Below, in pieces: positions 10,075 to 13,000 of a stretch of DNA of 64,000 nt (its first letter is position 1; every line of letters begins with the position of its first letter). Source of the DNA: Arenicola marina (Eukaryota > Annelida > Polychaeta > Arenicolidae); assembly GCA_964019135.1 (NCBI GenBank), contig OZ025248.1, positions 50,027,670 to 50,091,669 on the forward strand, written 5' to 3'. Position numbers and translations under genes: made by a program. A model generated the notes under the pieces. It ran no database searches and was not told the origin of the DNA. It saw only the letters and a program-made list of their open reading frames with translations.

Positions 10075-13000
10075 TTATTTCTCGGCTTCTAAGATCGACT
10101 GTTCATTGCTGGCCTCCTCCCCTTTGACCTTTGACCCCTCAGCTCCTCCTACGCGTTCTGCCTGGCTGCCTCCTGCCGCTCCCGATGCGGATATTGCCTC
10201 TGATTGGCTAGTTCCATTAGCGGCGTCCGGCGTAGTGAGGTCCGACTGTGATTGGTCGTCGGCAGGATCACGTGATGGCTCGGGCTGTTCTGATTGGTCG
10301 GTCTCGTTGGAGCTGCCCTCGGGCGGCTGATGCCCGGGAGCCGTGTCTCCGGAAGAGCCGGACTCTGGGGCGGCGACGGGACTGGCTCGGGAGCTGGTGT
10401 TGTCCGGAGTATTGGGCGGAGTCTGGGTCGGACTGACGCCCTCCTTCTCCGGGTCCGGGACGCCAGTCAAAGCTCCGTTCAACGACGGCGACAGTGATTC
10501 TGAAATGGGGCAATAATGTACATGCGGGAACCAGTAATAGATGGTGTGGGAAACTTGGGGGAGACATACATTGTGTAATATGGGAACCTGTAGTAAGGCC
10601 AGCACGTTACCTCAACAGACCACGTCAAAGTCGAGGCACATTGGTTGCATATAGCAACGTGAAGAGCCTGTGACCAAAATAGTCATCAACGCCATTAACC
10701 CCTCCATACTATATATATATATAATATACCGGTATATATTAATATACATTATATCTATATTAATATATATCAAAATAATACATATAATATATATCCATAT
10801 AAATCCGGGAAAACAAATCTGAGGACCACATTACTGAGCGACAGGCCTTGGCTGAACCCCGCGAAAGGGACCTCCCGGCGACTTCGGCACACGCGTGAGT
10901 AGAGAGGACGCTGGTGGGACGCTGGTGGGACGCAGCCATAGACTTACCGGCATCCTTTACGGCGCTGCCTCCTTTGTTTCTCTCCGACTGAAGCGCCCTA
11001 CAGAGACTCTCTAACTTCTGTACTTTAGTGTTGAGCGTCGTGATCACCTGATCGCTTCGAGTTTTCTGAAAATAACGTTTGCGTTCAATTTCGGGGAAAG
11101 AAATACGCGGCATATCTCGCAACTGTCATACGCCAGATCTGTGTATATTCGTGCTAAATTGAGACAAGGAACCCATTTTAATAGAAATGATTTCAAAGAA
11201 ATATCGCCAGGCTTCAATGCTGTAATTTTCTGATTTCAGATAACTTAACCTCATCATACATGGCCAGGATTTTGGCCAGATGCAAAGGACACGGCGGTCA
11301 AGATGGAAACACAAGAGCCTTAAAAAGACGAACTGGGTTATGTCCTGATAGTGCAGTGTAGGAAGGACATTGAAACATTGAAAAGGGGTTTGAATCAAGT
11401 TGAACAATCAGTATCGACCTCTGTAACGTTAACTGACTCGACCAATCACTACCGACCTCCTGACCCGCTCACTGATTGGGCCAATTACTACCGACCTCCC
11501 GACCCGCTCACTGATTGGGCCAATTACTACCGACCTCTCGACCCGCTCACTGATTGGGCCAATCACTACGGACCTCCCGCCCCTCACTGATTGGGCCAAG
11601 CACTACGGACCTCCCGCCCCTCACTGATTGGGCTAATCACTACGGACCTGCCGCCCCTCACTGATTGGGCCAATCACTACGGACCTCCCGCCCCTCACTG
11701 ATTGGGCCAATCACTACGGACCTCCCGCCCCTCACTGATTGGGCCAATCACTACGGACCTCCCGCCCCTCACTGATTGGGCCAATCACTACGGACCTCCC
11801 GCCCCTCACTGATTGGGCCAATCAGTAGCGACCTCCCGCCCCTCACTGAGTGGGCCAATCACTACTGACCTCCCGCCCCTCACTGAGTGAGCCAATCACT
11901 ACCGACCTCCTCAGCCATGTGCAGCAGCGTCTTGTTGCTGTTTTCCCAGCGTGTCCGCCACATCGTCGTGTCTTTCTCCAGCTTCTTGATCTTCTTAGTC
12001 ATCTGAAAAACGGATACAAGACGGACTTAACGGAAACGTCCAAAACAAACCACTCAAATGACGACTTGTCACGTTTGTCAACACCAGTCGATAATAATAA
12101 TCAAAATCCTATAATTGTACATCTATGTTATCGGCCTGATGCTGATAGATGACGTTGGCCTGGCGTCTAAAGCCCTACCCACACACCCACGCCAGTGCCA
12201 GGCATTCACCGCCCCACTCTAAACTCTGGCAGAGAAACGAGGTGTAGTTGTGTGTCCCTCTATGCCTACACCCGTCCCACAATCTGGTAACCGTGGCACG
12301 AGGTGTCGCCACCCACTTTGTCCATCTCGGTCTTGAAGGAGCCGAAGACGTCGTTGCTCTTGGCCAGCGTGGCCTGGAACTCCTCGTACTTGTCGGTGTA
12401 GATGGAGAGCTGGCTGCGCAGCGCCTGTTCCTGGGCTTCCATCAGGTGCATCTTCTTGTGGGCGTCCGTCACCTCCGTCAGAAGCTGCGGGTCAAAGGTC
12501 AGAGGTCACCAGGGCGGCGTCACGACAATCTTTAAGTGTCTTTGCTGTATTTAACAATATTTCTGTACTCTTGACCTACTAAGTTAATTGAGTTTTTAGT
12601 ACACACGTAAAGGACGTTTCAACTGGTTCTGACATCATGTATCTGGAAGGAAATGTGGGGCTTTAGGCCACATGCACATACTCTTGGGGCCAAAGATGAA
12701 AGTTTGAAACGGACACAGACGTGGGTTGAACCCGCCATCGGTTTGTATGTAAGCACGCAACCTCACAGCGGCTCATTACTTGTTTATTTCACCCACGTAC
12801 TTTACACAGTACCTCATAAACTATAACTCCACTCATAAACTACAACTCCACAAGTTGCATCGGCTTTGGCCATGCACCACTGCCATTACAAGATCACCGT
12901 TCTGAGACACATACCACTTGTGTTTCTATGAGATTTTTTAATTGTTACTATTCTTAATTACATACCACTTATTTTCCTTTTAGACGTGACTCCATTTTCA

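Follow-up and report, generated by a model that had tools for sequence, protein, structure and literature searches.

A probable mirage-type minisatellite at a taxilin 5′ splice site and the recurrence of donor-edge arrays in an annelid genome

The taxilin gene and its arrays

The window, which is the whole 64,000-nt stretch of DNA analysed here, holds a taxilin gene on its minus strand (Table 1). The spliced model of the domain (10075–16459) scores 346.7 bits against the Pfam Taxilin profile, and a genome-wide search with this profile found five exon matches, all within the gene, and a single match below the cutoff at another place. A search of the PDB returned weak coiled-coil-like or designed-protein matches and nothing stronger. 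The exon labelled exon 8 in an earlier note on this DNA matches profile positions 242–274, and position 274 falls at C1:50039576, equivalent to window position 11907, where the exon ends. The intron that follows (11066–11906) is 841 nt long, and a 37-bp minisatellite fills its first 465 nt. Over the part of the gene read here, arrays occur at the donor of three of the eight introns and at the acceptor of none.

Table 1. Features of the window, with slashes marking exon–intron boundaries and the evidence for each feature
Feature	Position	Strand	Evidence
Taxilin domain exons and C-terminal exon	10075..16459	−	9 exons and 8 introns by eye; five exon matches by profile
Taxilin exon ("exon 8"), ends ...KTLLHMAEE/	11907..12002	−	By eye and profile
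Next taxilin exon; acceptor AG ends at 11066	10948..11065	−	By eye and spliced domain model
37-bp donor minisatellite, 12.5 copies; 465 nt of intron and 4 nt of exon	11442..11910	−	TRF, unit-by-unit reading
Proposed authentic 5′ splice site, gaggag/GTCGGT	11905..11906	−	Inferred from reading frame and profile
Second taxilin ladder, 32 bp × 8.8; starts 3 nt inside exon ending 16320 (gccgtg/GTAGGT)	16041..16322	−	TRF
Third taxilin ladder, 53 bp × 2.8; last 29 nt of exon and donor (caagtg/GTATGT)	12900..13047	−	TRF
Array, 13 bp × 72.8; starts 32 nt into taxilin intron after exon ending 14395	13424..14363	−	TRF
Probable donor ladder, zf-FCS/QRICH1-type gene, 18 bp × 7.5	43084..43217	+	TRF; neighbouring exons by profile

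The 37-bp array has 94% matches and a TRF score of 758. A GT stands at all 13 of its donor positions (11906, 11869 ... 11456, the sense strand being the minus strand), in the context (c)GGAG/GTC.GTAGTGATTGG or close variants, and units 10–12 are 39 bp long. The earlier note had described about 12 units, each restating the exon end and its donor. The copy number, the donors and the position at the exon end all stand; the restated exon end is thin, because the array shares only 4 nt with the exon (GGAG), which could be chance. Unit 3 has the donor GTCGCT, which is very weak (score 1.0 on the matrix described below). The inner units are almost identical, and divergence is greatest in the units near both edges, a pattern that would fit turnover inside the array with fixed edges. 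By eye, a near-palindrome, TGATTGGCCCAATCA, with two facing CCAAT boxes, occurs in many inner units of 11442–11910 and is absent from units 1 and 2; it might aid slippage or bind a factor.

The array matches the assembly at one place, and no second haplotype was found for it. It stops 376 nt short of the acceptor at 11066, which lies in no repeat found. This arrangement bears on the idea that the array seeded the intron itself, through tandem duplication of an exon piece carrying AG/GT (Rogers; Gao and Lynch). Such an origin was proposed for mirages, the boundary minisatellites of amphioxus, by the authors of a globin study (PMC3087553, in its available text), and in human, novel introns have been described where variable minisatellites sit at exon–intron boundaries (PMC2812944, likewise in part). 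Against it, the taxilin acceptor stands outside any repeat, and unit and exon have so little sequence in common that we regard an origin of this intron from its array as very improbable.

Placing the donor at the edge of the second taxilin ladder yields a splice model of 358.2 bits, compared with 346.7 bits when the alternative is used. The third ladder follows an exon ending at 13019, for which donors placed 3 nt apart score practically the same (346.7 and 346.6 bits). GTAGAT or GTAGGT occurs in many units of the 13-bp array, which lies near a donor and does not overlap it. On the plus strand, the 18-bp array begins 3 nt before a putative boundary, gcgcac/GTGTGT (exon end 43086); no Pfam match was found for the open frame 42250–43113 in this region. 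Elsewhere in the window, the open frames 37125–39206 and 20359–20853 encode peptides repeated in tandem and in frame (in units of 51 bp and 30 bp), Tc5/DDE_1 transposase-like and reverse-transcriptase open frames lie at 23273–24397 (minus strand) and 46218–47750 (plus strand), and very long arrays at 1–7790 and 58570–63404 (44 bp × 175; 20 bp × 252) show marked G/C strand skew.

Donor strength and reading frame within ladders

Donors were scored with a vertebrate-style weight matrix, applied here to an annelid. On this scale the first taxilin donor, gaggag/GTCGGT, is weak at 5.1, a value not exceeded by 13 of the 116 donors surveyed below, whose median is 8.3. The donor of unit 2, GTCAGT, scores 7.6, and 5 of the 12 inner donors equal or exceed the first. 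Over 21 ladders (15 surveyed, four in the window and two in dynein genes), GT is kept at 148 of 152 internal donors; a general decay of donors inside arrays was not seen in this set. Internal donors were counted at places with up to 9 mismatches in 20 to the first donor, which in the 15 surveyed ladders found 108 where length divided by period predicted 109. Since 117 of the 152 internal donors equal or exceed the score of the first on the vertebrate-style matrix, strength alone cannot mark the right site. It may help donor choice in ladders with weaker inner donors, such as the taxilin 37-bp array, the 32-bp taxilin ladder near 16 kb, where two of eight inner donors reach the first donor's score, and one surveyed ladder (L087), where none of three does.

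Protein profiles indicate how these introns are bridged. Profile numbering continues across ladder introns in the four pairs compared, one in kinesin (164–243 then 244–327) and three in CCT (230–326 then 323–385; 373–442 then 437–488; 304–388 then 395–450). Profile continuity in taxilin is likewise consistent with use of the first donor. A donor from unit 2 onward would add GTC GGT AGT GAT TGG CTC ACT CAG and, as ninth codon, TGA.

Internal donors might instead be put to use, either as a source of proteins of different length or as a means of adjusting transcript decay. Three of the 15 surveyed ladders (L053, L102 and L134) combine a unit length divisible by three with a reading frame free of stops up to the second donor, whose use would insert residues in frame. 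The stop within the first unit of the taxilin ladder speaks against such a role there. Across the surveyed ladders we found no frame bias in unit length, with frame-keeping units in 5 of 15, and no excess of stops before the second donor, at 9 of 15 against a shuffled expectation of 9.0. Given both results, there is no sign of selection on second-donor use, and we consider a functional ladder improbable.

We favour reading the taxilin array as a mirage-type minisatellite, at a probability of roughly 0.8. A tandem duplication whose unit spanned the 3′ edge of the exon and the 5′ splice site would have grown to about 12 copies within the intron. Coding selection would keep the exon-edge copy, and the inner copies would turn over by slippage, unequal exchange or conversion. 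Every copy would be transcribed, with the spliceosome joining the exon-proximal donor to the downstream acceptor and excising the entire ladder with the intron. The first donor would win by position and not by strength, being made first and closing the exon with its upstream acceptor. The arrays would most likely be tandem duplications that span exon ends and do no harm because the donor transcribed first wins.

Arrays at exon ends in four gene families

The earlier note had proposed surveying introns for tandem repeats that overlap 5′ splice sites. We carried out such a survey on profile matches for myosin head (30 of 77 rows taken), kinesin (25 of 133), CCT (46 of 49) and dynein AAA_6 (20 of 94), in all 121 exon loci with sequence. 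The weight matrix served to place donors and acceptors near the ends of profile matches, each locus was scanned with TRF, and arrays were tallied according to how far their nearer edge lay from the site. Edges between −100 and +10 counted as lying at the donor boundary (110 nt), and the stretch 10–260 nt into the intron (250 nt) served as the interior control. Three donors (L031, L064 and L101) were removed by hand as false or as last exons, which kept 116 of 119; acceptors were not weeded. The donors of L069, L070 and L132 were placed by a hand-given string, and the L132 site may be one unit late. Three apparently intronless CCT rows (C5:36718893, C10:11072973 and C10:11073324) were left out, as were five kinesin loci (L037, L038, L040, L041 and L046) on contigs with in-frame TAG/TAA in their kinesin matches. 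These contigs (C390, C504 and C536) show several such codons and no TGA, and would fit a contaminant or symbiont that uses a ciliate-type code.

An array edge lay at the donor boundary in 18 of 116 cases (15.5%) and at the acceptor in 6 of 114 (Fisher P 0.016, with exons treated singly although exons of one gene are not independent). Units restate the donor in 15 of the 18 arrays, and the other three (L009, L063 and L124) begin 4–7 nt after it and do not repeat it. The 18 are spread over 15 of 53 gene clusters and 12 chromosomes. Thus, over the survey as a whole and not from the taxilin array alone, array edges meet donors beyond chance, and donor-edge arrays are widespread in the annelid host.

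Edges were also denser at donors than in the intron interior, so that the survey did not refute a concentration at 5′ splice sites. With all arrays counted, the 18 edges at donors compare with 19–20 in the interior (one-sided P 0.016, two-sided P 0.033), a modest, about two-fold excess per base. At acceptors, 6 edges compare with 23 inside the intron (P 0.32). Set against their own interiors, therefore, donors are in excess and acceptors are not. Among strong arrays (TRF score at least 200), 18 edges fell in the 110 nt around the donor and 10 in the 250 nt beyond that stretch (one-sided binomial P 0.0002), so that the per-base start rate at donors is about four times that inside the intron; this threshold is the strictest of four tried, and the 18 survive at every one. 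Acceptors at the same score have 4 edges, with 10 in the intron interior.

One explanation of these counts is a passive filter. Minisatellites would arise evenly in genes, with no birth linked to splicing, and those at donors would be tolerated since their extra copies are spliced out. Arrays are indeed common around the sampled exons in general, exon overlaps by TRF edge (0 to 87 nt) and periods of the 18 arrays (17 to 203 bp) are scattered as expected of random breakpoints, the all-array excess is only about two-fold, and acceptors show none. Such a filter should not, however, lift the boundary above neutral intron, where strong arrays are about four times rarer per base, nor does it sit easily with array coverage 100 nt inside the intron, which is 23.5% for donors against 10.5% for acceptors. 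We hold a purely passive filter to be plausible, though short of an even chance. The largest overlap, 87 nt at L079, is that of the TRF edge, and the exon part restated in each unit is shorter; elsewhere in the genome, some arrays repeat tens of nucleotides of exon. A clustering of overlaps near 50 nt, striking in the first 55 loci, dispersed once more exons were added.

Alternatively, 5′ splice sites could be hot spots of tandem duplication, by way of R-loops, breaks linked to nascent RNA or U1, or G-runs after the donor. The excess of arrays at donors would be expected from this. Sense-strand G skew is positive in 18 of 24 donor arrays, with a mean of 0.17 against 0.02 in 124 other arrays (uncorrected for the donor motif, which partly forces the lean towards G), and 7 of the 24 carry G-runs of 11–14. 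Yet two of the 24 have a skew of −0.50, C-runs of 11–13 occur in two, and the donor-over-acceptor pattern is equally explained by an asymmetry of selection. A bias of birth at donors is thus a tentative suggestion, which we place somewhat below an even chance. More doubtful still is the broad claim that minisatellites in this annelid arise preferentially at 5′ splice sites through a link to transcription or splicing, leaving about one intron in seven led by an array, mostly as ladders of near-identical donors, some of which (those with in-frame units free of stops) would feed protein-length variation.

Under the mirage-type reading with first-donor use, we propose that donor ladders outnumber acceptor ladders because the first-made site of an acceptor ladder is the wrong one. 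That the position rule predicts fewer tolerated acceptor ladders is a reading fitted to these counts and not a test of the rule. Acceptor-side ladders do occur (L085, L112 and L124, also L115 and L131), restating the intron end and exon start, as in a dynein gene with 11.2 copies of 87 bp (L115).

Two dynein paralogues outside the 116 donors (L113 and L114) came to notice through duplicate profile rows, produced by the repetition of exon pieces. In each, the array repeats 65 nt of exon together with the donor. The two are 77.6% identical across 76 nt leading up to and including the array start, their ladders begin at the same exon base, and the first exon parts of the ladders differ at 3 of 65 nt. 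Common origin, conversion and repeated birth are alternative accounts of these shared ladders.

Host identity and relation to known systems

The mitochondrial contig of the host (15,942 bp) carries its protein genes and accepted tRNAs all on one strand, in the order cox1-N-cox2-D-atp8-Y-G-cox3-Q-nad6-cob-W-atp6-R-H-nad5-F-E-P-T-nad4L-nad4, continuing C-M-12S-V-16S-L-A-S-L-nad1-I-K-nad3-S-nad2; genes were named by eye, rRNA places were inferred from gaps, and three weak tRNA predictions were set aside. We take this to be the Lumbricus order. The cox1 frame is open under tables 5, 9 and 13 and not under 2, and the code alone does not decide between annelid and amphioxus. The erythrocruorin-linker family, which is an annelid family, has four genome matches over the cut-off. 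Annelid mitochondrial genomes keep their genes on a single strand and largely conserve their order (PMC4505326, in its available text). Gene order and the erythrocruorin-linker family together indicate an annelid and not an amphioxus.

Mirages are known from amphioxus Adh3 (Canestro et al. 2002, as cited) and globin genes (PMC3087553), and tandem repeats at splice sites from lancelet troponin C and PGBD5 (PMC3902484). Insofar as the available text of these two papers describes them, mirages repeat the exon–intron boundary, carry splice signals in many units, keep the boundary copies outside homogenisation and affect donors and acceptors alike; both papers suggest that regular splicing is left undisturbed. 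A further trait of mirages is a copy number that is unstable between alleles or cells; for the taxilin array the assembly gave a single match. The earlier note had named the Adh mirages as possibly the same phenomenon, and the comparison supports this: the taxilin array fits these descriptions, with GT at every donor and an overlap, of 4 nt only, with the exon end at 11907. It differs in how little exon its unit shares, and the wider set of arrays differs in its annelid host, in its frequency (about 15% of sampled donor boundaries in four families) and in favouring donors over acceptors. An annelid array also falls outside the cephalochordate range given in the available text of both papers, a matter of range and not of structure. 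In lancelet PGBD5, repeats of 60 and 108 bp abut or overlap splice sites, again with splicing taken as undisturbed, but these are imperfect, of few copies and from a different phylum (PMC3902484, in part).

Outside cephalochordates, minisatellites at exon–intron boundaries are already published in human, within segmental duplications, where some are linked to novel introns (PMC2812944, as far as its available text goes). Those resemble the taxilin array in their units of about 30 bp, in the boundary position of some and in altering gene structure; they lie mainly in exons and bring novel introns and alternative transcripts, and the same text describes no donor ladder. A literature search of partial coverage, limited to titles and the starts of abstracts, returned no annelid report of such arrays, which supports novelty only weakly.

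Intron gain by tandem duplication of AG/GT proto-splice sites (Rogers 1989; Zhuo 2007; Gao and Lynch 2009; cited in the available text of PMC3087553, which itself proposes intron gain from globin mirages) likewise involves exon pieces duplicated with their splice signals. There, donor and acceptor both come from the duplicated unit, whereas the taxilin array fills the 5′ part of its intron, with no sign that it supplied the acceptor. In their available text, PMC3087553 and PMC3902484 treat mirages as a cephalochordate feature; the presence of arrays at about 15% of the donor boundaries sampled in an annelid suggests a general mode of intron growth. The annelid ladders offer many natural tests of how the spliceosome chooses among near-equal donors, and a choice of the site first made and first used gives opposite predictions for donors and acceptors.
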